Of a stretch of 64,000 bases of DNA, positions 12,157-49,221 are shown piece by piece (position 1 is the stretch's first letter; each line of letters opens with the position of its first letter). Source of the stretch: a virus; IMG/VR virus record IMGVR_UViG_3300008050_000024, positions 1 through 64,000 of that record. One strand, given 5' to 3'. The translations under genes were made by a program, and so were the position numbers. The notes beneath the pieces are model-generated. The model worked only from the letters and a program-made list of their open reading frames with translations, did no database searches and was not told the DNA's origin.

Positions 12157-15100
12157 TTACATTTGCCGCTGTACCCCTCTAGGCAGGGGGCCTAATGGTA
12201 CAGGTGCCTTCTCTTCTATAGCGCCTTTTGCCCAGGACTTAGCCATTCGCCTCACTCTTTCGGAAACCGGGTTTCCCATATTAGACTCTACTTCGTCAAA
12301 CGCATTTACTGCTAGAGTGACCCGCTCCTCCACCAAACGCATAGTAGCTTCCAACGTAGTCCTGCAATCCTGTGGCAAGTCTTCCCAAGTTAAATGACTG
12401 TTAATGTTTTGAAGAATTTTCAGAATGTTAGTATTGGCTTCAATTGCTCCACGCGTTGCTTCTACTACTTGTTCCAATTTATGATCGTAATCATGTGCGA
12501 CTGCTAGAATGGACCTCTGTTGATATTCGGACAAATCACTCCAACCGATCTTTCTGGATTCCGTTGGCGTATCCTCTTCTACGATCTCATTGGCTCCGTC
12601 GCTGAGAGCTGCGAATAGATTTAGAAGGGTTGATTTTTGAAACTTCCCTTCTATTGTATACCTTACTTCTTCATTCAGTAACGCCAAGTCATCTGGAGTA
12701 GGACAGCGTCCCTCATCTCCTGGCTCAGAACGCATATCCCCGATACACAGGAACAAAATTCGTTGTGCAGCTATGAAGTGGGCTATATCACCCCAGGCAA
12801 CAAGACCCTGTTCTACTCCGCCCTGCATCAGTCTCAGTAAGCCTAGCGCCTTTTCTACAGAATTGATAACGGCATACTCCTCTTCCGGATTGCCTATAGG
12901 GTACGAGGATAAGTAGCCTTTCCCTATAACTACCAGGACATCACCTAAATCCAATTCCGCCCTGTCATACTCTGATTTACGATCCTCATCTTGTTCCTTC
13001 TTAAGATTCTCCCGCTCTGCTTTAAGCTCTTCAAGAATCTTTTCGTTTTTTTCTAAATCCCTCTCATAGGAGCCCTTACCCCTTTGCCACTCCTCTATCA
13101 ATTCCGGAAACATTCGATAGATCCTGTCGCGCAAGGATTCGGGAGACTGCACAAAATACTGCAAGGCATTCACCAGCGCCTTAGAGTTACTTACAGGGGG
13201 CAAAGAAGTTGATGCGAAAACTCGCAAGGCTTCTGTCGTAAACCTCATCTGCTCTGATACATATTTTGCATTAGGATCACATTTAAAATCAGTCTGCCAC
13301 TTCGCCTGCAATGACAGGAACCGACACATAGTCCTTCCTGTAAAGAAATGCGCATACAAGGCATCAAACATCACATGCAACGAATTGCACTCCTTCTCTG
13401 AATACGGTACCGACATCCCCCCAACCTTTTTGTACCATTCTGGAATTTCCCTATTCAAGTTCTCAGTATGTCCTATAGCATAGGATGGGCTTGATATTGA
13501 TTTGCTCTCCAATTTAATATCGATATCTGGAGCCCCCTCGTCGAAAGCTCCCTTCTTCTGACACTCGTACACCAGATAATCAAGTAGTATTCGGATACGG
13601 GCAAACAGTGACATATCATTATCAAATTGATCTATGGCCACCAGTATATCTAGGGACACCTTTACTCCCTGTTGCTCCGCACACACCACTGTCATGTTTT
13701 TGATGTGCTCCTCTACAGATAACACCAGTTGAAGCGTATTGTGTCCTTTCCTGGAAGCCTCGTGTTCAATACACTCCTTGTACTCTTTTTTCAGCCACTC
13801 ACATAAAACACGCATATGGTAGGTTTCGACAACATCAAACTCAATGTCCCCGCTGGGATATAGCACACCATGCCACTTGCGGAGATCCTTTTTTAATAGT
13901 CGATCTGCCGCTGTCTCTAACTTTTCCGTCAAATTAACCGTGCCGTAGAATTGGTCAAACGCCGCTGTCTGTGCTTCATTTCGAGTAAATACAGGAGGCA
14001 AAACGAAACAAGTCATTAGCACTTCTCGAATAAGAGAAACCGCCTTGTCCTTTCCTTCAGGGCTGTTTTCCAAAATATTAAAGGCCTCTACCAACGGAGG
14101 AACGGCTACAAGAGGACCCTGTAGATGACGTAAAACCGACTCTGTGACCTGATCTACTTCATGCTGCAATAAAACAGGAGGACCCTCCGAAGGGGTGGAA
14201 TCGAGGGGCTTACGAAAAAACGCAGTAAGATAAGAAAAAAGGAAAGAATCGATATGCTTCCGGATCAACTCCTCCTGTACTTTGTTTAGCAAAACAGGGG
14301 GCTTTGCTGCAAGGGGTACGAAACGAGCGTCACAGACTCGCATAACCAACTGATCGATAGTCCAATCGCAATGACTGTGTTGTTTCAATACCGTAAGGGC
14401 AGTGCCCAGTTCCAAAGAGAATTGCGATAAATCAATTGAACTAAAATGGGTCCGGGCAACTTTCGCCAAGATACCAACCTCGTCCCGTGTGATGCCCTTT
14501 TTGTATTTTTCTACATCGGAAAAAAGCAACTCGTTAATATGTACACATAGGAGATGCTGCTGGGACTCTGTCAGGGGAACATCTGCTGGGCGATCCCTCG
14601 TGACAATTGGCGACCCTGCTTCGGTGAGTTTCACTGGGTCTTCCTCAACAAGGACTTCGCCCCCTACCGCATTTGCCCAGGACGATAACACTCGGTACAC
14701 CGCATCCCGCTCTTCAATAGACTCCCATTCGAACTCGGCCGCCTCGGTTTTGTCCCGCAATCGTTCATAGAAGTCCCGAGCTGTCTCTGGTGTTACTTTT
14801 ACGTCAAATTTAAGAGGGTTAGAATCTGATGATTCCTCCGCAGGGTTGTTACAAAGGGGCTTCATTGCCTCCTGTATTTTATCCGTGCCTTCTTCAATGG
14901 AAGATACTCCGTGGGCGCCTACCGAAACATGCCCAAGGTACCCTTTGACGGGAGTGACTGATACTTTATGAGGAAGAGAAGCTGCCTGAATGGGTAGGTT
15001 GGTTGGTTCTTTCTTTGGAGCGGGAGGGACATGAGCGGGATCGCGTTTATCAATCAAACCGTAGACCGCATCCATACATCGATCCAGGTCCTCCTGCCCT

Positions 15101-15315
15101 TGCCATTTGATCATCCCCGAATACGCCAGGCGTTCCATAGTCGCCTTTAATGTCGCGAAAGAGTCTACACCCCAGCCTAGTGCTTTCGCATAAAGCAAAG
15201 CACGTACCGCTTCATCCCTTTCTTGATTGATCATCCTCGTCATGAATAGACCACAAGCGTCTTTCGCTAGTTGGAACATATCGACGCCCTCAGGCGGTTG
15301 CTGTTTTTCTTTCAC
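12157..15315 (-). CDS. Very large protein of unknown function, 1052 aa
   Basis: The start is set at the GTG at 15315 because AAGGAG lies six bases before it. An upstream in-frame ATG would read through the structured leader. The protein is mainly helical and acidic. Residues about 90-240 hold Pro/Ser/Thr-rich linkers (HVPPAPKKEPTN), and about 746-778 is a strong coiled coil (EKILEELKAERENLKKEQ). There is no signal peptide, membrane segment or recognisable catalytic motif. Its size and solitary position behind a structured leader suggest an important product, perhaps a virion-injected or structural protein, but that is only inference. Confidence 0.75.
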   Translation of the reverse strand: MKEKQQPPEGVDMFQLAKDACGLFMTRMINQERDEAVRALLYAKALGWGVDSFATLKATMERLAYSGMIKWQGQEDLDRCMDAVYGLIDKRDPAHVPPAPKKEPTNLPIQAASLPHKVSVTPVKGYLGHVSVGAHGVSSIEEGTDKIQEAMKPLCNNPAEESSDSNPLKFDVKVTPETARDFYERLRDKTEAAEFEWESIEERDAVYRVLSSWANAVGGEVLVEEDPVKLTEAGSPIVTRDRPADVPLTESQQHLLCVHINELLFSDVEKYKKGITRDEVGILAKVARTHFSSIDLSQFSLELGTALTVLKQHSHCDWTIDQLVMRVCDARFVPLAAKPPVLLNKVQEELIRKHIDSFLFSYLTAFFRKPLDSTPSEGPPVLLQHEVDQVTESVLRHLQGPLVAVPPLVEAFNILENSPEGKDKAVSLIREVLMTCFVLPPVFTRNEAQTAAFDQFYGTVNLTEKLETAADRLLKKDLRKWHGVLYPSGDIEFDVVETYHMRVLCEWLKKEYKECIEHEASRKGHNTLQLVLSVEEHIKNMTVVCAEQQGVKVSLDILVAIDQFDNDMSLFARIRILLDYLVYECQKKGAFDEGAPDIDIKLESKSISSPSYAIGHTENLNREIPEWYKKVGGMSVPYSEKECNSLHVMFDALYAHFFTGRTMCRFLSLQAKWQTDFKCDPNAKYVSEQMRFTTEALRVFASTSLPPVSNSKALVNALQYFVQSPESLRDRIYRMFPELIEEWQRGKGSYERDLEKNEKILEELKAERENLKKEQDEDRKSEYDRAELDLGDVLVVIGKGYLSSYPIGNPEEEYAVINSVEKALGLLRLMQGGVEQGLVAWGDIAHFIAAQRILFLCIGDMRSEPGDEGRCPTPDDLALLNEEVRYTIEGKFQKSTLLNLFAALSDGANEIVEEDTPTESRKIGWSDLSEYQQRSILAVAHDYDHKLEQVVEATRGAIEANTNILKILQNINSHLTWEDLPQDCRTTLEATMRLVEERVTLAVNAFDEVESNMGNPVSERVRRMAKSWAKGAIEEKAPVPLGPLPRGVQRQM

Positions 15316-15338
15316 GTGTTTCTCCTTTGATAAAAAGA

Positions 15339-15427
15339 AAGTCGGTGGCTGGACAATAAAAAGGAGAGAATCAGAAACCTTTCTACCGACATAAGGGGTG
15401 ATCGAGTCCCTTCCAGCCATCCGACTT
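15339..15427 (-). promoter_or_regulatory. Structured leader element B of the 1052-aa gene
   Basis: The arms 15339-15353 and 15412-15427 pair over 15 base pairs with one bulged base (position 15420). The roughly 58-base interior holds a further AAGGG / CCCTT helix. It ends only about 24 bases before the GTG start and its ribosome site, so folding could control translation. No known riboswitch consensus was recognised. Confidence 0.6.
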
Positions 15428-15453
15428 AGACTGTTTTGAAATGTTTTGAAAGT

Positions 15454-15555
15454 GTGAGGACCGCTATTCCCGTTTTTCACCACTAACAAGATAACAGGAT
15501 ACTCCTGCAAGCAATGGTCCACCGAGTGCGAACCTTGCTATCTTCTGGCCCTCAC
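15454..15555 (-). promoter_or_regulatory. Structured leader element A of the 1052-aa gene
   Basis: The closing helix pairs 15454-15462 with 15547-15555 (nine pairs including one G-U). Inside are AAGATA/TATCTT (15488-15493 with 15539-15544), the hairpin CAGGA-TAC-TCCTG (15495-15507) and AGCAA/TTGCT (15510-15514 with 15535-15539). The predicted transcription start at about 15555 is its first base. This multi-branch fold is not a tRNA: there is no T-arm. Confidence 0.6.
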
Positions 15556-15561
15556 TTCTAG

Positions 15562-15591
15562 AGTGTACAAGATGTCAAACTAGAATGTCAA
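15562..15591 (-). promoter_or_regulatory. Promoter of the 1052-aa gene
   Basis: TTGACA (15586-15591), 18-base spacer, TACACT (15562-15567). It lies over the end of the 68-aa gene, and transcription from it would start exactly at leader element A. Confidence 0.6.
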
Positions 15592-15781
15592 TGGTGTTCA
15601 AAAATACATCTTTGAACTGGGATTTAGCTCGCATGAAACGATCGTACGTCTGAGGAGCTTTGAGTGCCGGCTTGCCGGTATATACAGGAGGGGGTTCTGC
15701 AGGTAGGAGTCCCGCGTTTTGGATTCTAACGCGTTCCTTCTTGGGAGGGAGTGGTGATATGGGAGTAGGTGTGATTTTCAT
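15575..15781 (-). CDS. Small Pro-rich protein, 68 aa
   Basis: Overlaps the previous stop by four bases. The first 45 residues are Pro/Lys-rich and probably unfolded (KITPTPISPLPPKKERVR), ending in a short helix (YDRFMRAKSQFKDVFLNTID). No motif. Its 3' end overlaps the promoter for the 1052-aa gene. Confidence 0.6.
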   Translation of the reverse strand: MKITPTPISPLPPKKERVRIQNAGLLPAEPPPVYTGKPALKAPQTYDRFMRAKSQFKDVFLNTIDILV

Positions 15782-16047
15782 TTCATAAATATATGATCAC
15801 TGGCGTTACGTATCATCAGATGGTAATCCATGCCTTCGTGATGATGGCTAAATTCCACAGGGTGTTTGCATTGGCAGGTCCAACGAGTACGCCCTATTCG
15901 ATTATTAACGACCACACGCCCTGTTTCATACGATGCTACGAGTTGATGAACTTCAACCAGCATGGGATTGAACAAGTTCCCGCAGGAACGGCACCAGCCC
16001 GAATTCCACCAAAAACTCTCAAGCCATTTGAAAAACCATTTGAACAT
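15778..16047 (-). CDS. Zinc-binding small protein, 89 aa
   Basis: AAGGAG before the ATG at 16047. An aromatic N-terminus (FKWFFKWLESFWWNSGW) leads into CRSC (about 19-22), with a later CQC (about 58-60) and a His-rich segment (EFSHHHEGMDYH), giving a likely Cys/His metal site. It is the first gene beyond the terminator of the giant RNA, so it relies on readthrough or a promoter not identified here. Confidence 0.6.
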   Translation of the reverse strand: MFKWFFKWLESFWWNSGWCRSCGNLFNPMLVEVHQLVASYETGRVVVNNRIGRTRWTCQCKHPVEFSHHHEGMDYHLMIRNASDHIFMK

Positions 16048-16061
16048 AGATTCTCCTTGTC

Positions 16062-16100
16062 AAAAATAAAGGGGAGCTGGTAAAAACCAACCCCCCTTTA
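16062..16100 (-). terminator. Intrinsic terminator of the giant RNA
   Basis: On the minus strand the stem AAAGGGG / CCCCTTT (with an inner TGGT / ACCA) is followed by an ATTTTT run. On the plus strand there is no T-run after the hairpin, so the terminator is directional and shows that the RNA upstream is read on the minus strand. Confidence 0.75.
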
Positions 16101-16880
16101 ATGCAAGTCTAGACCCAGGGAAACACACACTGAAACCCAGACCAAGCAAACGTAGCTCGACGGAAGACTTGCAAATTCCAGATCAAAAAACACAACAATG
16201 CAAGCAAGCAGGGCTACCAGTGACATATACACGCATGGCAGTGGTAGCCGTTCTATATAGTTTAAGGGGTAAACATGAAAATGTCTACCCCAAGGTAAAA
16301 ACGCCAGGACAAGAGGCGAATCATGTCGTGGCGAAGAGGATAAAGCTGTATACATCCTTGTAAGCTTTACTGGCCATGTCAGGGGCCATCGATGATTGAT
16401 GGTAGGGGAAGTGATCCCCGCCTTCCCCTACCGTAGACAGGGTGTTTGGTCACCCTACCTTCGGATGATTTGAAGTGGGAATGCTTCAGGGGCCTAATCC
16501 CTACACACTCCCACATACTCCCCGCTAGGTATTTAAGGGATCCGGGTAGAAGCCTTAGTTCGCGCACACCTAGCGCCTATGGAGAATCGCCCATGCGTGA
16601 GCGATATCGTATTTTTGGAGCATTGCGAAAGTGTGTGTATAACCAGCCACAGCTATCTCAATACTCGTTAACCTGTAATCAGTCAAGATGTCGGTCAAGT
16701 AAGGAAAAACAGGTTTATGGATTATTTTGGTGGGCTGTTCAACGCTTGCATGGGTGCAAGAAGGTCGAAAACAGCCCACGGAGTGGAGTCTTGGCACTCC
16801 ACTCTAAGAGGAGTCCTGTCTCGTGGTAGGGCTACCACGAGATATCGATATTGGTCAGGCCATCACCCCCGACCAATTCC
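16062..16880 (-). ncRNA. Giant ornate structured RNA, about 820 nt
   Basis: No credible coding frame exists between 16048 and 16883. Instead there is a dense series of perfect helices: 16850-16856/16871-16877; 16820-16828/16833-16841 (9 bp); 16781-16789/16796-16804 (9 bp); 16730-16739/16770-16779 (10 bp) enclosing 16745-16750/16755-16760; 16670-16676/16709-16715; 16523-16530/16568-16575 (8 bp); 16401-16411/16422-16432 (11 bp); 16439-16444/16451-16456; 16341-16347/16363-16369; 16266-16271/16286-16291; 16212-16219/16242-16249 (8 bp); 16103-16110/16165-16172 (8 bp). It ends in a minus-strand terminator. Size and phage context resemble the GOLLD and ROOL classes of large phage RNAs, but I could not match a consensus, so the class is open. 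Confidence 0.8.
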
Positions 16881-16883
16881 AGA

Positions 16884-17249
16884 TTAGTTGAACAGTTTAT
16901 GGGGAACTGTGGCCTTCGTACTCGATGTGATAGAGGGAGGGGAGAAAGTAACGTCGGCGCCTTTCCGTGCCACGTTAAAGGTTGCCCCCGTGTCTACCTT
17001 AAGAGATGCCTTACCACCATCTTTCAATTTCTTAATGATCTCCTGGTGCTCAGGGTGCAGTGGAATCGAATAGGAAATGCCTACTTCAATTCGCATATAC
17101 CGCCATTCCTTTTGTTTTTCATCGAAAGGAACGACAATCTCAGACGTCACTTTGATTTTCCCCTTGGTATAAACAACGGGCGGAGGTTTAAGTCCCTCCG
17201 TGACATTGCCTCTTGCTTCCTTTAATTTGCTTATCGCCGTCTGTGTCAT
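16884..17249 (-). CDS. Hypothetical protein, 121 aa
   Basis: AAGGA precedes the ATG at 17249. A basic helical N-terminus (TQTAISKLKEARGN) is followed by beta strands (KIKVTSEIVVPFDEKQ; MRIEVGISYSIPLH) and a Ser/Thr-rich end. Its stop at 16884 is only a few bases before the first helix of the giant RNA, so the RNA may be processed from the same transcript. Its place soon after portal suggests a morphogenesis role, unproven. Confidence 0.6.
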   Translation of the reverse strand: MTQTAISKLKEARGNVTEGLKPPPVVYTKGKIKVTSEIVVPFDEKQKEWRYMRIEVGISYSIPLHPEHQEIIKKLKDGGKASLKVDTGATFNVARKGADVTFSPPSITSSTKATVPHKLFN

Positions 17250-17260
17250 GTAATTTATCC

Positions 17261-17698
17261 TTATTTCATTTGCTTTTTAGCTTTGATCAAAAAAGCTTTC
17301 ATTAAATTATCAGCAATCTTATCTAAAGGCTTGCTGGGATTGATTACGATTGTACCATTGCCGTACTCTGGACCAAGCACATGGTGGTAGTACAGGAACC
17401 ATCCAAGATAGATTTCGGTCTTGGGATTTGTTCGGTTACTAATACTCCAAATCAAGTCAAAATGAGCACCCGATTTTGGGTCCAGAAAATTAAGGTAACG
17501 ATCAATCGGTCTTATCTTTCCTCGTACGACTGTATCCCCGACAACGAATCCATCGGCTCTCAATGAAGCCATAACATCTCGATGAACAAGATCCGATAAC
17601 TGTGGATTGATTTCAATCTTGATGAAGCTGTTAATGTCCCCGCCCTCATTGATGGGACTGATTGTTTCCTGTAGTCCTTCTATTAAAGTCTTTTTCAC
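17261..17698 (-). CDS. Hypothetical protein, 145 aa
   Basis: GTG start at 17698 behind AAGGAG. The protein is alpha/beta with a polar N-terminus and a segment rich in aromatics (EIYLGWFLYYHHVLGPEYG) and ends in a basic helix (AFLIKAKKQMK). No motif. Located between the membrane protein and the 121-aa gene in the packaging operon. Confidence 0.65.
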   Translation of the reverse strand: MKKTLIEGLQETISPINEGGDINSFIKIEINPQLSDLVHRDVMASLRADGFVVGDTVVRGKIRPIDRYLNFLDPKSGAHFDLIWSISNRTNPKTEIYLGWFLYYHHVLGPEYGNGTIVINPSKPLDKIADNLMKAFLIKAKKQMK

Positions 17699-17731: not shown

Positions 17732-18127
17732 TTACATTACCCAACGAAATACTTGCCATACAAGGACAAGCACAAGAACCGCACAGAAAATCAAATGCGA
17801 TGTCTTGGGATTATGGAAGATTTGAAATCGCATAGATTGCTTCTTCATCTTCCCCTTGGTCCAGGCTACGTACATGCCCAGGTCTTCACTCACTTTGTTT
17901 CGAACAGTTTCTTTTTCAATATAGTTGTTAAGCATTGTGGCAATGTCATGATTATTCTGAGACCGGCAATGCGTCTTCACTGACTGGATTCCCTTTATCA
18001 TCCCCTCCAGGATTTTCTGATCCTTTGGCGCCCTCATGTACCGAGCTGCTACCATCCCTACGAAGAGAACCGCGTCTACTACGAGTCCCCAGTCCACGGC
18101 CAGAATTGCTGTTATTGTTTCTTGCAT
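17732..18127 (-). CDS. Membrane protein overlapping the portal gene, 131 aa
   Basis: A perfect AAGGAGAG site precedes the ATG at 18127, inside the portal gene, so the first 176 bases are read in two frames. There is one hydrophobic segment near the N-terminus (VVDAVLFVGMVAARYM), a charged middle, and a second at the C-terminus (LIFCAVLVLVLVWQVF). The two-segment layout would fit a membrane-anchored or holin-like protein, but no lysis genes are beside it and no claim is made. Confidence 0.65.
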   Translation of the reverse strand: MQETITAILAVDWGLVVDAVLFVGMVAARYMRAPKDQKILEGMIKGIQSVKTHCRSQNNHDIATMLNNYIEKETVRNKVSEDLGMYVAWTKGKMKKQSMRFQIFHNPKTSHLIFCAVLVLVLVWQVFRWVM

Positions 18128-19805
18128 TTTCTCTCCTTGCGTAAAACTGTTCTGCCAATTTACCTCTAATGGTTTTGGCTTCTTTTACAGTGTCCTTCTC
18201 TGGGTCTTCTTCCAAAGCTGGATCTTCGTCGTCGTCATCCTTTGGTCCTCTGTCCTCTGGATCTTTGCCCTTTTCTTTTGCGGCTCTTTCTGTTCCCTCT
18301 TCAGCCTGTCTGAACATTTCCGCCCCTCCCTTAATAGATCCCATCAAGGATTGAACGAGTTGAATGGCTTCAGGGAGTTGAACTTCCGGTCCAAAGATTT
18401 CTGATTCCTTCAATGCTTCGACTAGCGCCATCATCCTTTCGATCATGTCCAGCTTAATATCCAGGGCTTCTATCGTCTGGATTTGCGCCGAGTCAATCGC
18501 GTTCACGAAGTCTACCTCGATGTCACGCCAGGACGCTATCTCAACGTCCGCTATACCGCAGTCTATGGCGATCAGGTGACGGATGGACATGGCCACCGCC
18601 TTCTGACCCTTCATAACCCTCTTCTGTAAGCGGGCATACTGTCGAATCCCCGATCTAGCGTTAGCATCGGTCTGACCATATATCACTTCATAGGGCACAC
18701 CGTTGGCAGTAGTGATTGACTCCCTCTTGTCCCTGATCTTCTGTAATCGATTATCAGCAGATGCATTGGTATTTAATACAATGGGGTCGATTCCCCCTCT
18801 GTTGGGGTCTCGCAAAATGACTTTGATTTGACCTGCAAGTCGAACCGCCTGTTCAATATCTTGCGGGCTCATTGACGACGTGTCTTCTACCGAACGGTTG
18901 ATTCGCTGTTCGTAGTAGTCGATCCAAACTTGTTGTTTCTTTAAATCAAGTCCAGCAGGGGCGTCAACATTGACAAGGGAGTTTCTGTTCAGGTCCGCCA
19001 TTTCCTTAGCGACATCGACAATCTCTAAACTCATCAAATCTCGGATCTGAGGAAGGAGTGTCGAAAACATGGGACGGCCGGACCGTAGGTGATAAGGCAC
19101 CCGGGCCATGCCCATGTCGTTCCCTATCATGATCTTTCGTATACTAGTTGAAATTGTCCAAAACTCGGTAGGTTCCTTGATGACAATTTCGTTACCCCTA
19201 TCTTCCAATACAATAGAGGGTAATTTCTTCCGGTGAACCGACACAACCGATAGGGGTTGTAATGTATCTAAAATATCAATCACACCCTCTTTAGGATCAG
19301 TAACGACTTTCAATGAATAGTCACCCCAGAATAGAGCTTCAGGCACTATGTCTGCAACAATCTCTTCCAAGTCGAAAAGCTCCAACAGGCGCTTGATTCT
19401 CTTTTCAATTTTTTGTTGGTTTTTTGCCCCCTCTTTTACCCTAATAGAAAATATCTCATTCGTGATGGGATCTGGGGAGAGCATTTCATCAGACAGTGTA
19501 TGTACGATTTCGTCGACCAAATAATAGTCCTGGTATGAATCCAGGGCTAGATAAAGTCTTCGCAATGACGCATACGTTTCGTACACCTTCATCGCCATCG
19601 CCGATTCGATTTCGTTAAATCGACTAGACCGGCGTAAATTTGTTTCAAGCGTCTTTAATTCAAGAGCTTCTCTCTCTGCGGTCTGTTCTTTTGTTTCCTT
19701 GTCTTTTTTCTTTACTTCGGGATGTTCGAGTTCGTCATCCCTTCGTACTAACTCGCCTACCGCTCGTCTCCATCTCATTGGGTTTAATGCTGAAAACCAA
19801 CTCAT
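17952..19805 (-). CDS. Portal protein
   Basis: 617 residues directly after terminase, the usual portal position, with a four-base overlap. The portal is the dodecameric ring at one capsid vertex through which DNA is packed. The core contains the typical mix of helices and short strands (SLRRLYLALDSYQDYYLVDE; GVPYEVIYGQTDANARSG). The last roughly 130 residues are low complexity: an acidic tract (DPEDRGPKDDDDEDPALEED) and then an Arg/Gly/Ser/Asn tail that overlaps the membrane-protein gene. The assignment rests on context and general sequence pattern. Confidence 0.8.
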   Translation of the reverse strand: MSWFSALNPMRWRRAVGELVRRDDELEHPEVKKKDKETKEQTAEREALELKTLETNLRRSSRFNEIESAMAMKVYETYASLRRLYLALDSYQDYYLVDEIVHTLSDEMLSPDPITNEIFSIRVKEGAKNQQKIEKRIKRLLELFDLEEIVADIVPEALFWGDYSLKVVTDPKEGVIDILDTLQPLSVVSVHRKKLPSIVLEDRGNEIVIKEPTEFWTISTSIRKIMIGNDMGMARVPYHLRSGRPMFSTLLPQIRDLMSLEIVDVAKEMADLNRNSLVNVDAPAGLDLKKQQVWIDYYEQRINRSVEDTSSMSPQDIEQAVRLAGQIKVILRDPNRGGIDPIVLNTNASADNRLQKIRDKRESITTANGVPYEVIYGQTDANARSGIRQYARLQKRVMKGQKAVAMSIRHLIAIDCGIADVEIASWRDIEVDFVNAIDSAQIQTIEALDIKLDMIERMMALVEALKESEIFGPEVQLPEAIQLVQSLMGSIKGGAEMFRQAEEGTERAAKEKGKDPEDRGPKDDDDEDPALEEDPEKDTVKEAKTIRGKLAEQFYARRENARNNNSNSGRGLGTRSRRGSLRRDGSSSVHEGAKGSENPGGDDKGNPVSEDALPVSE

Positions 19806-21673
19806 CTAAATCCTCTCCTCCACCCTTTGCGTTCGAACAATGAGGGTGACGTTTCATTTTTTAGTGCTTCTTCCATTTGTTTGGTAAGGTCGTCTGCGGT
19901 ATTGTCTGGTAGTAAGTTCAACTTAGAACACATATAAGTGCTCCCCGCACAAGCATCCGAACCGTCTTTACTGCCTTTTGGAGGGTGATCGAATTTCTTA
20001 CCCACATCCCTCAATTCTTTGAATTCCTTTTTCAGTATAGCACTCTTTGGTCCCCTCCACCTTTCCTCTACAATCGACTGGGCAATACCCTGATACGCAT
20101 GCTTGTGTTTATCGAGTGAAAGCTCCTCAGTCTTAAACCCGGCTTTCATACATCTTTGGAGGAAATCGACTGATTGGTATCCGTCGGCTGATATGCAAGA
20201 TATTGTCATACCTAAATCTCGAAGTTTAACCACGAAATTGAATATCTTATACAATGGGATTTGATCGCCTTTAAGGGCTTCTAGGAAAAGACAAAACGGT
20301 GTAGATATCAGTGACCCGGCTGCTTCTTCGTAGGAACCTTTCGAAGCATTGAACCGACTTACTTTCTTAGCTCCTACACCTACCGATGCCGCTAGAGCTG
20401 CTCTGTCTGTCGTTTTTGCAAAGTCACAGTGAATACAGTAACTACCCTCCATCGACTTTATCATCGTTATGAGTAGACTGAGGTTAACGAAATCGACTAT
20501 TTCTTCATCTCCCATCACAGGGATTCGAATTACTTCGACCGTCGTTATGGGTTCGATGACGAGGGATTTCGTAAGGGCCTCTACCTTTCGAATTAGCTTC
20601 GACTGGCCCCTTGTACTCCTACCGGCAATCTCCTTCAACGCTTGGTGTATATCTTCGACGAATTCGTTGTAGTACTCAATCGGTACTTCTAAGATGTCTG
20701 CAGCGTCTAATAATGCCAGTTGACCCTCATCCTCTACAATGAAAGGATCTGTATTTTCGTTTCCTTTAAATACTAGGAAAACCTCGTCGGTGTGTTCCTC
20801 TGGTTTTGCTTCCCAAATGGACATATCGACGACGTAGGTCTGGGGATCGTTGCCGGCGGCGTCTACCCTCATGTCTAGGAAGTCTGCTTCAGTGTTTCGA
20901 CTAGACATTAACCACAAATGGCCGGGGACTGGGTTGCCCTTCTTCATGAACCTACTTTTCATTCTTCGTCTTAGGGCTAAATAATTGATCATTACCTGAT
21001 CAGTCACAAACCCTCCGAAGTTCGATTCATCTATCAGAGCGGCGAATATGGCTCGTCCTATACCGTGTCCAGCCCTCGATCCAATCTGTATGTCAATACT
21101 TTTTGGTAGAAGAGGTCGTTTCCCCTTGTGTCCCTTATACTGCTTCTTGGCTAAACCCATATGGTGCTGGAAGAAAGGACTTTCGAGGAGAATGTACTGG
21201 AGCTGGCTCCACGTGACGTCTTCGGCTGTGTCCAAGTTCAAGGAAAACAGTGCGAATGTCAGTATAGTGCTTTCAATCAACCCATACTTGTATTGCGGCT
21301 GGGAAAGATGAAGCATTTTGCACAAGTCATATGCAATACCGACGACAGCGAATGTCGTCTTACCAGTTCCAATGGCACCCGTTAATATGATTTCGGTAAA
21401 GGGTGAAAAGAAAGGGTCTGGAAACAGTTGAATTGCATGCTGTCTCCATACGTCCCACAATGCCTGCTGGCGTCTGACTAGTACCCCGAACTCATCTTGT
21501 ATATAGTCTTGAGTGAAAGGGTCTCTTTCATACCGTCCATATATGTTACCTAAGTAATAAGGATCATCTAGGAAGGTAATGACGTCTGGTGGGGCTTTGT
21601 CGTACCCCTGCTGGCTGGCATACAATGCGTATACCGCCTCGATGGGCGTATTCTCGATAAGGGCTGTCGTCAT
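19802..21673 (-). CDS. terL: Terminase large subunit
   Basis: A 623-residue DNA-packaging motor with N-terminal ATPase and C-terminal nuclease. The Walker A variant is LTGAIGTGKTTFAV at about residues 97-110. A Walker B region with the catalytic acid is FAALIDESNFGG (about 210-221). The RNase H-like nuclease shows HCDFAKTTDRAALA (first acidic cluster) and a C-terminal KDGSDACAGSTYM. It overlaps the upstream probable small subunit by one base and portal by four bases, the classic packaging module. Confidence 0.92.
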   Translation of the reverse strand: MTTALIENTPIEAVYALYASQQGYDKAPPDVITFLDDPYYLGNIYGRYERDPFTQDYIQDEFGVLVRRQQALWDVWRQHAIQLFPDPFFSPFTEIILTGAIGTGKTTFAVVGIAYDLCKMLHLSQPQYKYGLIESTILTFALFSLNLDTAEDVTWSQLQYILLESPFFQHHMGLAKKQYKGHKGKRPLLPKSIDIQIGSRAGHGIGRAIFAALIDESNFGGFVTDQVMINYLALRRRMKSRFMKKGNPVPGHLWLMSSRNTEADFLDMRVDAAGNDPQTYVVDMSIWEAKPEEHTDEVFLVFKGNENTDPFIVEDEGQLALLDAADILEVPIEYYNEFVEDIHQALKEIAGRSTRGQSKLIRKVEALTKSLVIEPITTVEVIRIPVMGDEEIVDFVNLSLLITMIKSMEGSYCIHCDFAKTTDRAALAASVGVGAKKVSRFNASKGSYEEAAGSLISTPFCLFLEALKGDQIPLYKIFNFVVKLRDLGMTISCISADGYQSVDFLQRCMKAGFKTEELSLDKHKHAYQGIAQSIVEERWRGPKSAILKKEFKELRDVGKKFDHPPKGSKDGSDACAGSTYMCSKLNLLPDNTADDLTKQMEEALKNETSPSLFERKGWRRGFR

Positions 21674-32715: not shown

Positions 32716-32832
32716 CCCTTTTGTACTAACCGAAAATATCAGGGGTTACATTGAAACAGTTTCAAAAAATCAGCACAGTTTTGAGTTGCTCATTTGAGTT
32801 TCGTTGTTCCCTTCGCAGGAGTTTATGCAGCA

Positions 32833-34140
32833 ATGGCAGATGACAATCATGGAATTGAATTAGTAAACGCAGACCAAAAGCTATTTCATATAGTAGACCA
32901 AGATCTTACCGATTTATGGTTGCCGTTAATTGGACCCACCGCATACACGGTATGGAACGTATTGAAACGCTTTACCAATACACTGGAACGAGGAACGGCC
33001 TTCCCTGTAGTGACCCAAAGGCATTGGGCAGAACGAATAGGGATAAGCCAGAATACGTTTAATACAGCGATCAACGTGCTAGAGAAACACCGTCTAGTCA
33101 AAACAATAAAGAAAAAGGGAAACACCCGTCAACTCAAGTACGCGGTACTCAGTGTGCCTGCTATTTTACCCGATCACCTAAAAAAGAATAGCAAACCATA
33201 TTCAAAAAGCAATCCTTTCATGCACCCTGTGTTAGAAGGCCGAAGCCGACTCTTTGTAAAGCAAAAAATAAGCTTTACACCAACGCAGGATAAACAGGCA
33301 ATAGATATCGCTCAACAACGGGAATCCCAAAATTTGGGAATCCCAGAAATAGACGAGTTACAAGAAAAAGACAGTTTAATGGGATTCCCAAAAATTGGGA
33401 ATCCAAATTCCCAAAATTTGGGAATCCAAATTCCCAAAAATTGTGAATCCTTAGTAGAGGGTACTATAGTACCCCCTACGGTAAAAGAAAGTATAAAAGA
33501 TAGTAATTTAAAAAACAGTGGTGTGACCTGCGTTCACACCAGTGATATTTTAGAAGATGAGGTTCCTTCTACCCCGAATGGAATTGTTAGGACGAATCAA
33601 CCAATACCACAATCCCATCAAGTAAAATCAGACCATGAGAAACTGGTTGACTGGTTTGATAACAACAGAATAACATCCCATCCAAATCTGGTTAAGCCGG
33701 GAGCACTTACCCCATCAAGGAAAAAGAATAGCCTGGATGAGATAGACAGACTGATCAGGATTGACGGATTCGACTTTGAAACCGAAATCAAACCAACCAT
33801 TGAATGGGCAGTAACCGATCCATTCTGGGATAGCAATTTGTTGGCGCTTACTCGTTTGCGGAACATTGGAAGCAATGGTCAATCTAAGTTTTTGAATATG
33901 CACAGATCCAGAACAGCTCAACCGACTGCCGGATCATCAGCTCCCACGTTTGAGGCTAAACTGAGCAAAATCAAACATCCCTACTATTCGCCGCAAGAGA
34001 TGGCGAAAAAGACACCAACCGAAATAAGGGATTTGCAAGGAACACACTACGACAAGAAGACAGGCGAGTTTTGGGAATACGATCAACAGGGAAACGAACT
34101 TCAGCATCGATGGTTAAGAGATGAGGAGGAAACAGCATGA
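32833..34140 (+). CDS. Replication initiator with winged-helix domain, 435 aa
   Basis: The start is at the ATG at 32833, 12 bases after AGGAG. The N-terminal domain (about 50-105) has a winged-helix pattern: TQRHWAERIGISQNTFNTAI, then NVLEKHRLVKTIKKKG. The central region is low complexity, with repeated SQNLGI peptides that are simply the translation of four iterons. A C-terminal helical domain ends HRWLRDEEETA. Neighbours are a helicase loader and a DnaB-like helicase, the lambda O / P type of arrangement. A DnaD-like or RepA-like initiator role is inferred. Confidence 0.78.
   Translation: MADDNHGIELVNADQKLFHIVDQDLTDLWLPLIGPTAYTVWNVLKRFTNTLERGTAFPVVTQRHWAERIGISQNTFNTAINVLEKHRLVKTIKKKGNTRQLKYAVLSVPAILPDHLKKNSKPYSKSNPFMHPVLEGRSRLFVKQKISFTPTQDKQAIDIAQQRESQNLGIPEIDELQEKDSLMGFPKIGNPNSQNLGIQIPKNCESLVEGTIVPPTVKESIKDSNLKNSGVTCVHTSDILEDEVPSTPNGIVRTNQPIPQSHQVKSDHEKLVDWFDNNRITSHPNLVKPGALTPSRKKNSLDEIDRLIRIDGFDFETEIKPTIEWAVTDPFWDSNLLALTRLRNIGSNGQSKFLNMHRSRTAQPTAGSSAPTFEAKLSKIKHPYYSPQEMAKKTPTEIRDLQGTHYDKKTGEFWEYDQQGNELQHRWLRDEEETA
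33320..33518 (+). other. Likely replication origin inside the initiator gene
   Basis: Four iterons built on ATTCCCAAAA-TTGGGAATCC: 33320-33344, 33381-33404, 33405-33427 and 33428-33450. The last three are directly tandem at 23-24-base spacing, and each is a dyad with the centre AAAATTT or AAAAATT. They are followed by a perfect palindrome GGGTACTATAGTACCC (33459-33474) and an A-T rich stretch (33482-33518) suitable as an unwinding site. The arrangement copies that of phage lambda ori within gene O. Confidence 0.75.
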
Positions 34141-47064: not shown

Positions 47065-47615
47065 CAACAGTTATAATTGAATCAGAAGAAGATTTCAAAC
47101 ATCGCATACGGCTTAATATGGGTGAGCTTGAGGAATTGTTTTTTGAGCATCCCGCAATCGTAGCCGAATATGGCGAACTTGCTGCGAAAGCTGAGCGTGC
47201 CTACAATCTCGCTCACGAAACAGCACGGGAAACCCTTTTTGGTATTATGAACGATGCTAGAAAGAGTCCCACAGACTATGGGATCGTGTCGGCCCGTTCA
47301 GCTCCTCCCGAAGGCGCTATAGAGAGCACGGCACGGTCCGAACAAAGTGTAATTGACGCCCGCAGGGCAGAAGTAGAGGCACAGTCCATTTGGAATATAA
47401 CCAAAGGACGAATGCAAGCTCTACACCACAGGAAAAAAATCATAGAGTCACTTGTAAACCTAACGCACATGGGGTTTTTTGCTGCTCCTAAAGATGCGCC
47501 TGGGGCACGATTGACTCCAACTAAGGAAAAGTCACAAGCTATCAATGAATCAGTGGACGCCGCAATCCGGCGATCACGCAATTTACCACATCCATTGGAG
47601 GGAACACATGAATAG
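47061..47615 (+). CDS. Hypothetical recombination-associated protein, 184 aa
   Basis: ATGA overlap with the clamp loader. Mostly helical and charged with a central coiled segment (ARRAEVEAQSIWNITKGRMQ). In many phages a small helical protein just before the ssDNA-binding protein is a recombination mediator of UvsY type; this fits the position but the sequence resemblance is not clear to me. Confidence 0.6.
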   Translation: MTTVIIESEEDFKHRIRLNMGELEELFFEHPAIVAEYGELAAKAERAYNLAHETARETLFGIMNDARKSPTDYGIVSARSAPPEGAIESTARSEQSVIDARRAEVEAQSIWNITKGRMQALHHRKKIIESLVNLTHMGFFAAPKDAPGARLTPTKEKSQAINESVDAAIRRSRNLPHPLEGTHE

Positions 47616-49221
47616 ATCGGAACGAGCACAGGCACAGAGGGACAGGATCAAACAAGATGCTGTTGCCTCTCAATCAAAAGGAGCGGATTACTTAGGAAAT
47701 TCCAAGTTTCCTATAAAGACGCTCAACCTCAAAACAGGCACCCATTTTTTGGATTTCATGCCCTATGATGTTACTATGGAGGGATCTCCTCACAAGGTAA
47801 TACCGGGCGACATTTGGTACAGGAGGAGTATCCTACTTCACCGAAACATCGGTTCAGAAAACATCAAACTGGTTTGTCCCAAAACCTTTGGGAAAGATAA
47901 ACCCTGCCCCATTTGTGCCCATCGTAACTATCTACAAGGGCTCGGAGATCCTTCCATGGACGCTCTTATCAGCTCGATTAAGCACCATGAACGTACTTTG
48001 TTTAATGTGGTGGATCTTAATAATTCGTCCGTGGGTACTCAAATACTGGATGCCGGGGATTTCCTGTTTACTAACTTAATGATGAAGGAAGTTAATGAGA
48101 ATGATGATTTCCTCTACTTCACTGAGTTGGAGGGTGGGTATCAAGTCAAAATCCGAATGGATGAGAGTAGTTTCCAGGGACGCAGTTTTCCAAAGGCTGG
48201 TCGATTCGATTTCATACCCAGGGATTACACGTACCCAGAAGCCGCTATGCAGGCTGTTCATGATTTGGATGCCATCATCATCGTGCAACCCTATGAAGAA
48301 ATCAAAGAGTTGTTTTTTGAAGGAGAAGAGCCTCCTGTTGCTGGGGCAACCACTGTTTCTGTTCCTGGTGCCGTAGCCGGCGCAGCTCCCGCTGCTAATT
48401 CTGTTGCGAGTTTTATGCCAGCCGGTGCTGTTCCTTCAGGGACTGCTCCAGGTGCTGCCGCTGTTAGTCCTCCAGCTTTAGCCACAACGCAACCCGCCGC
48501 TCCTCCCGCATCAGTACCAGCGGCGCAACAAGCCGCACCGGGACCAGTAGCTCAACAAGCAGTACCGGCGCCAGCAGCTCAACAGGCCGCCGCTCCTGCG
48601 CCGGCTACTCCTGGAGTAATAACAAGAGACCCCATGCCAGAACAAAAGGCGAATGAGGCTCCCACGCAAACAGCTCCTCTAGCCACGGCACCTCAACGCA
48701 CAAACCCTCCCGGGACTGTAGCTGCTCAAGCCCCTCCCGCTGCTCCTCCTGCTGGGATACAGAGAAGTGCCCCTGCCGGAGCGGCAATCACTCAACCTAC
48801 CGAAATACCAACTCCCCCAAAAAAGGCGCCTCCTGGTCCTACCGGATATGAGCCTTGTATTGCCTGCCAAGAAACAGGCGTACCCTCAAATGGAATTGGT
48901 GACTGTTTCCCTTGCAAAGGATTTGGTTGGTTGACTGTGCAGGCCCCCCCTGCACAGCAACCACCCGCCCAGCCTCCTGCGGTTTCCCCTCAAGCTGTTG
49001 CACCCCCAGCAGCGACTCCCCCGCAGGAGGCTCCAGTAAATCAAGTTCCCGCCCCAGCAGCACAAGTGCCCGTGCAACAACAGGCCGCTACTCCGGGAGG
49101 AACGTGTCCAGATCCCGCTGGTACCTTTGGTGTTTCTACAAACGACATTCCCGCCTGTACAGCCTGCCCCTTATGGGAAGCTTGTGCGGATCGTAAGTTC
49201 GGAGACACCGTCCCATTCTAG
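47608..49221 (+). CDS. ssDNA-binding protein (gp32-like) with Ala/Pro linkers and extra zinc modules
   Basis: 537 residues from the ATG at 47608. Residues about 15-230 form a gp32-like core with a zinc site at Cys91, Cys101 and Cys104 (CPKTFGKDKPCPICAHR). Then follow over 150 residues of Ala/Pro/Gln repeats (AAQQAAPGPVAQQAVPAPAA). A second zinc unit of DnaJ type, CIACQETG ... CFPCKGFG, is at about 415-435, and a third Cys cluster (CPDPAG, CTACPLWEAC) is at the C-terminus. The T4 protein has only the first zinc site. The tails may recruit replication partners. Confidence 0.78.
   Translation: MNRSERAQAQRDRIKQDAVASQSKGADYLGNSKFPIKTLNLKTGTHFLDFMPYDVTMEGSPHKVIPGDIWYRRSILLHRNIGSENIKLVCPKTFGKDKPCPICAHRNYLQGLGDPSMDALISSIKHHERTLFNVVDLNNSSVGTQILDAGDFLFTNLMMKEVNENDDFLYFTELEGGYQVKIRMDESSFQGRSFPKAGRFDFIPRDYTYPEAAMQAVHDLDAIIIVQPYEEIKELFFEGEEPPVAGATTVSVPGAVAGAAPAANSVASFMPAGAVPSGTAPGAAAVSPPALATTQPAAPPASVPAAQQAAPGPVAQQAVPAPAAQQAAAPAPATPGVITRDPMPEQKANEAPTQTAPLATAPQRTNPPGTVAAQAPPAAPPAGIQRSAPAGAAITQPTEIPTPPKKAPPGPTGYEPCIACQETGVPSNGIGDCFPCKGFGWLTVQAPPAQQPPAQPPAVSPQAVAPPAATPPQEAPVNQVPAPAAQVPVQQQAATPGGTCPDPAGTFGVSTNDIPACTACPLWEACADRKFGDTVPF

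Follow-up and report, generated by a model that had tools for sequence, protein, structure and literature searches.

A candidate large structured RNA beside the packaging genes of a phage, without a match among catalogued RNA families

ROOL and GOLLD RNAs form cages built of RNA only, the purpose of which is unknown, and ROOL is often encoded near tRNA islands (PMC12286853). As cited in two papers (PMC5643018, PMC7567579), GOLLD is a phage-borne RNA of ~800 nt that accumulates during lytic infection. The most abundant transcript of the Vibrio phage ICP1 is an RNA of ~800 nt, which arises from an ORF-less gap in a phage devoid of tRNAs (PMC7567579), and the large Staphylococcus phage K produces two long, abundant non-coding RNAs, lnc001 and lnc002 (PMC9241854). 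Here we describe a gene-free block in the 103,868-base record of an uncultivated phage (IMG/VR record IMGVR_UViG_3300008050_000024), whose first 64,000 nucleotides are the window in which all unlabelled coordinates below are given. Judged from its sequence, the block appears to be a large structured phage RNA by kind, and membership of either ROOL or GOLLD is not supported. The closest precedent is the ICP1 RNA, which lies in the same genome stretch and on the same strand as the ICP1 terminase gene, in an ORF-less gap of ~1 kb (gp139-gp140 in the numbering of the paper) with a minus-strand neighbourhood, in a phage likewise without tRNAs, and with an intrinsic-terminator-like hairpin near the RNA end. 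The two differ in that the search of the phage collection gave no sequence match between them, that the ICP1 RNA folds with a z-score of just -3.1, and that it has been demonstrated by RNA-seq, whereas the present candidate is predicted from sequence. The phage K RNAs differ from the block in adjoining tRNAs and in folding more weakly (z -2.1 and -4.6), and share no sequence match with it.

The block occupies positions 16048-16883 and is the largest of its kind in the record, extending from the stop codon of a 121-aa ORF to the base before the ATG at 16047 of the next minus-strand gene (Table 1). The next-largest inter-gene gap measures 513 nt and the median gap 32 nt, in a gap listing where spurious ORFs within the block mask the block itself. 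On the minus strand, confident helices begin at 16877, and the last base of the U-run is 16062. The terminase and portal genes are encoded on this same strand, whereas a replication module comprising SNF2-type helicases, a primase, a DnaB-like helicase, a DNA polymerase and a ribonucleotide reductase occupies the plus strand from 22.4 kb, a layout implying that the candidate RNA is read along with, and downstream of, the packaging genes. Downstream of the candidate a 1121-aa protein is encoded (12157-15522, minus strand), for which phages and PHROGs offer no match and Pfam none that is significant. The longest ORFs inside the block measure 85 aa on the minus strand and 127 aa on the plus strand. 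Searches of the internal ORFs of 75 and 127 aa against phages with tblastn returned no match, and a comparison of five internal ORFs with PHROG returned nothing except one match at E=0.0056; tblastn gave no support to this plus-strand ORF as a PHROG member, and we rejected it. Thus, neither the PHROG comparison nor tblastn found a coding signal inside the block. An initial annotation had described a gene-free block in the packaging operon that ends in a minus-strand intrinsic terminator. Its absence of genes is borne out, the assignment to the packaging operon is right because upstream of the block the same strand encodes the terminase and the portal, and the terminator, with 15 pairs followed by a T-run, is indeed found at 16100-16062.

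Table 1. Coordinates in the window of the candidate RNA, its neighbouring genes and its predicted helices
Feature	Position	Strand	Basis or remark
Candidate large structured RNA, ~820 nt	16062..16883	-	fold z, top rank, without coding signal; first confident helix from 16877
121-aa ORF directly upstream, without family match	16884..17249	-	
89-aa ORF directly downstream, CxxC and CxC motifs; AAGGAG at 16051-16056	15778..16047	-	
Portal protein	17952..19805	-	26-45% identity to portals including nearest relative
Terminase large subunit	19802..21673	-	34% identity over 95% of length to Rhizobium phage terminases
Hairpin ATTGGTCGGG/CCTGACCAAT, loop GGTGATGG	16850..16877	-	pair probability 0.99
10-bp perfect hairpin TCTCGTGGTA/TACCACGAGA, loop GCCC	16819..16842	-	fold and inverted-repeat count
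9-bp perfect hairpin GAGTGGAGT/ACTCCACTC, loop GCCAAG	16781..16804	-	fold and inverted-repeat count
Two-tier hairpin GTGGGCTGTT/AACAGCCCAC, inner CTTGCA/TGCAAG, loop CCCA	16730..16779	-	fold and inverted-repeat count
16-bp interrupted hairpin	16618..16666	-	pair probability 0.96
7-bp hairpin TCGCTCA/TGGGCGA	16587..16604	-	fold
Helix CGCTAGGTGT/ATACCTAGCG around second hairpin at 16557-16534	16523..16575	-	fold and inverted-repeat count
15-bp interrupted hairpin, loop ATTAGGC	16475..16514	-	pair probability 0.98
10-bp hairpin, loop ACCAAA	16435..16460	-	fold
11-bp perfect hairpin GGTAGGGGAAG/CTTCCCCTACC, loop GCGGGGATCA	16401..16432	-	fold and inverted-repeat count
Short hairpin TGGCC/GGCCA, then hairpin GTAAAGCT/AGCTTTAT	16340..16388	-	fold
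11-bp interrupted hairpin CGCCACGACATGA/TCTTGTCCTGGCG	16302..16333	-	fold
11-bp hairpin GGGGTAGACAT/ATGTTTACCCC with G-U pairs	16266..16291	-	fold
14-bp interrupted hairpin GGCTACCA...TGGTAGCC	16212..16249	-	fold and inverted-repeat count
Perfect helix TGCAAGTCT/AGACTTGCA closing 3' domain	16102..16173	-	local fold and inverted-repeat count
Intrinsic terminator: 15-bp hairpin, loop TTTT, T-run	16062..16100	-	terminator and fold

The folding of the block is extreme and biased to one strand. The whole block folds on the minus strand at -333.8 kcal/mol (z -10.4 against 20 dinucleotide shuffles), and repeat shuffle sets on a slightly shorter stretch gave z-scores of -8.5 and -8.8, while the plus-strand fold is weaker (z -6.0, and -5.7 on repetition). 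We also carried out a regression-based scan of 18,600 windows of 150 nt on both strands of the phage and of TerL-bearing loci, together ~1.4 Mb, in which the minus-strand run 16051-16800 ranked first among 17,904 strand-runs of 750 nt with a mean z of -4.1. The second-ranked run, with a mean z of -3.1, corresponds to a repeat array that the phage carries at 33.3 kb, where four copies of a 27-nt palindromic repeat of the AACGGGAATCCCAAAATTTGGGAATCC type are found at 33317-33450 within a plus-strand ORF (32794-34140). The product of this ORF is similar to O-like replication-initiation proteins, and the array has the appearance of an iteron origin lying in the initiator gene, like that of lambda O. 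Elsewhere in the record, a GC-rich and strongly folding segment (48901-49050, z -7.7) lies in a plus-strand ORF (47545-49221) weakly similar to single-strand DNA-binding proteins, and a structured spot beyond the window (G000:C1:98701-98850; z -5.0 on the minus and -3.5 on the plus strand) falls in a 124-nt intergenic gap.

Perfect Watson-Crick inverted repeats with loops of up to 60 nt were counted over 16062-16884 and in 200 dinucleotide shuffles. There are 20 with arms of at least 6 bp (shuffle mean 8.8, maximum 16), 12 with arms of at least 7 bp (mean 2.2, maximum 7), eight with at least 8 bp (0.63 in shuffles) and five with at least 9 bp (0.14 in shuffles). At every arm length the count is above that in shuffles, so that the "more than a dozen" perfect helices of 6-11 bp claimed in the initial annotation are both real as a count and beyond chance. 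By prediction, the RNA from the block ranks among the most hairpin-dense in the compared sequence. Both strands of a perfect palindrome fold, and this block adjoins the packaging genes, which would suit palindromes acting as DNA in a packaging-initiation site, an origin or a recombination site. We consider this improbable, given that the transcribed strand folds better and has twice the G-U pairs (17 at P>0.8 for the minus strand versus 8 for the plus), that the core interruptions, though just three, are GT and never AC, that a transcription terminator stands at the block edge, and that the iterons in the O-like replication gene are a better origin candidate, the likely origin being located elsewhere than the block. 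The G-U excess is as expected if a minus-strand RNA has been selected, and is suggestive rather than proof because the thermodynamic method favours whatever pairs.

Read from 5' to 3' on the minus strand, the predicted anatomy begins with four or five strong local hairpins (16877-16730), followed by a less certain middle region (16715-16577) that moderately probable long-range helices connect to 16260-16156. Next come about nine local hairpins in a row (16575-16212) and a 3' domain closable by a perfect 9-bp pair and succeeded by the terminator. A pairing of TTTTCCTT with the next gene's AAGGAGAA also appears in the minimum-free-energy model, probably as an artefact of including a ribosome-binding site in the folded stretch. 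At the 5' end the first confident helix follows the upstream stop codon after only 7 nt, and just upstream of the 5' part of the block there is no sign of a sigma-70-type promoter; hence, the candidate RNA seems to be either co-transcribed and trimmed, or started inside the upstream gene, and the latter option seems to call for a promoter within that gene that the consensus does not describe.

At the 3' end the AAGGAG of the next gene begins five bases past the U-run. This proximity keeps alive the main rival to a released RNA, namely that the block is a long cis-acting leader or attenuator preceding the ribosome-binding site of the gene at 15778-16047, which sets the transcription reaching that gene, its neighbour and the 1121-aa gene. 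No space is left past the terminator for a separate promoter, so the downstream genes need either read-through or a promoter inside the block. We assign such a leader a low but appreciable probability: at 820 nt and about 20 helices the block is far above known leaders, the permissive Rfam scan gave no riboswitch or leader family match, and no alternative anti-terminator helix is apparent by eye in the folds.

To place the block among described RNAs we searched the whole record with Rfam at gathering thresholds, which gave no match, and scanned 15500-17400 permissively, which gave just two chance-level matches (snoU54 and Pedo-repair); in the permissive scan none of OLE, HEARO, raiA and the other Rfam large RNAs reaches E 10. 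The ROOL model (RF03087) does not match this phage at E 10 or 1, while it scores 264.8 bits on Enterococcus phage EF24C, 213.5 on Lactobacillus phage Lb338-1 and 128.4 on LP65, against a cut-off of 99.1. With the GOLLD model (RF02032) 18 candidates in the record were scored and none passes at E 10, a negative of undemonstrated sensitivity as the control phages tried were also without a match. The covariance models named in the initial annotation (GOLLD, ROOL, HEARO, OLE and raiA) are thus all without a match, GOLLD lacking a working positive control, and its caution that the RNA may be neither GOLLD nor ROOL was well placed, as neither model matches and the usual tRNA neighbourhood is absent. 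The packaging RNA of phi29 is a structured RNA of ~174 nt from a podovirus with a different motor; it is connected with packaging, and the block, compared with it via the Rfam scan alone, resembles it by location only.

The size, the phage location and the ornate fold of the block would all be compatible with a highly diverged GOLLD, ROOL or other catalogued large RNA that the models missed. We regard this as very unlikely. The ROOL model, which detects ROOL in three control phages with 128-265 bits, returns nothing from this phage; none of the GOLLD candidates passes; the permissive scan yields no large family at E 10; and the entire 103.9 kb record is devoid of tRNA genes. The block does share with ROOL the character of a large phage RNA with many helices in a gene-free block without protein coding, and with GOLLD the size of ~800 nt and the phage location. 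A tRNA neighbourhood is usual, although not obligatory, for ROOL, and GOLLD frequently has a tRNA in or beside the RNA; neither situation obtains in this phage. The three ROOLs over the Rfam cut-off (L128:1501-2077 in EF24C, L129:1501-2073 in Lb338-1 and L130:1501-2075 in LP65) are ~575 nt long, as against ~820 nt here. The ROOL of EF24C has a tRNA within 120 bp, and a 135-nt hypothetical ORF218 is annotated overlapping the ROOL end. The fold z-scores of the three controls are -4.0, -5.0 and -1.1 versus -8.8 here, values only roughly comparable across RNA lengths; the inverted-repeat counts offer a cleaner contrast, with 3, 3 and 1 perfect 7-bp repeats in the controls versus 12 in the block. 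As true ROOLs have ordinary inverted-repeat counts, the hairpin density of the block is not what a ROOL-like RNA would predict. ROOL forms an octameric cage with intermolecular kissing loops, whereas the hairpin loops of the block include no pair with at least 5 complementary nt (0.68 expected, in a comparison with no ROOL run alongside), so that ROOL-like self-assembly through kissing loops is without support from the sequence; A-minor and other contacts are beyond what a comparison of loop complementarity can judge. In sum, size, setting and kind ally the block with ROOL and with the long RNAs of ICP1 and phage K, from which it differs by a much greater density of long perfect hairpins.

Searches for homologues returned no relative of the block. 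Neither blastn against phages and plasmids nor exact-pattern scans of viral contigs and genomes recovered a homologue, and IMG/VR yielded no close relatives of the proteins encoded by the upstream gene and the terminase gene. A wider terminase profile recovered at least 80 distant loci, with best-segment identities of at most 41% among the matches listed, and a portal profile found one IMG/VR contig and none of the GTDB genomes. The nearest IMG/VR record among the matches listed is a 75.7 kb contig (G001; portal 45%, terminase 38% identity), in which no sequence match and no folded block of this sort turned up; there and in other relatives the block finds only scraps of 13-24 nt. Several candidate counterparts were rejected: matches of 17-mers fell in one group of related coding contigs and a few unrelated ones, with nothing common beyond ~22 nt; a 20-base stem pattern occurred in two contigs, one with the same 50-nt span, with unrelated loops and surroundings and in one case inside a gene; the structured run at 47851-48450 of G001 is inside a gene; and the structured runs inspected in three further loci (L035, L032 and L016) resembled ordinary genic or intergenic DNA. 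A separate viral contig (L115:2163-2213 and L115:2454-2504) carries two near-identical intergenic palindromes (GTAACTCTAGTACTACTACTTAGTAGTAGTACATAGAGTTAC) before successive small genes. By these searches the phage appears nearly alone in the collections searched, from which records very near the window may be missing, and absence from them is therefore not absence in nature.

That the gene-free block is missing from the nearest relative might point to the remnant of a mobile RNA element, such as an intron, a retron or a TnpB or IscB guide RNA, or to a decayed coding region. There is only a slight chance of this: no intron or guide-RNA family matches, Pfam gave no match above threshold for RVT_1 (reverse transcriptase), TnpB-type or HNH domains in the whole record, and decay would lower the folding score, not raise it. 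Lying outside every catalogued RNA family and without a detectable relative, the block has a strong, if unproven, claim to be a new large phage RNA.

On balance, the block quite probably yields a functional structured RNA from the minus strand, and we lean towards a released, trans-acting RNA rather than a leader. The large, ornate RNA of the initial annotation, on the minus strand in the packaging region, stands as the best reading of the anatomy; that it is made and that its helices are conserved are predictions. In the mechanism we favour, the block would encode a large structured non-coding RNA of ~820 nt, with a late packaging transcript running through the short upstream genes into the block. 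The RNA would be cut or initiated from this late operon, with most transcription halting at the terminator. Its roughly 20 stable hairpins, the 3' terminator stem among them, would shield the fragment and allow it to accumulate late in infection. By analogy with ROOL, GOLLD and the ICP1 RNA it could have a structural role in trans while representing its own family, and we guess that it assembles either with copies of itself or with a ribonucleoprotein of the phage or host. More tentatively, the block may represent a family of giant phage RNA that is new and has its own architecture, in which a dense series of about 20 hairpins, mostly local and near-perfect, takes the place of a ROOL or GOLLD fold; such an RNA would be produced together with the head-packaging genes and serve in capsid assembly, packaging or the takeover of host RNA metabolism. 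The candidate is short enough for in vitro transcription followed by direct probing or cryo-EM. The abundant long RNAs of ICP1 and phage K belong to no named class, and a further candidate outside ROOL and GOLLD, with denser hairpins and without neighbouring tRNAs, would extend the diversity of giant phage RNAs and raise the question of whether they share a job rather than ancestry.
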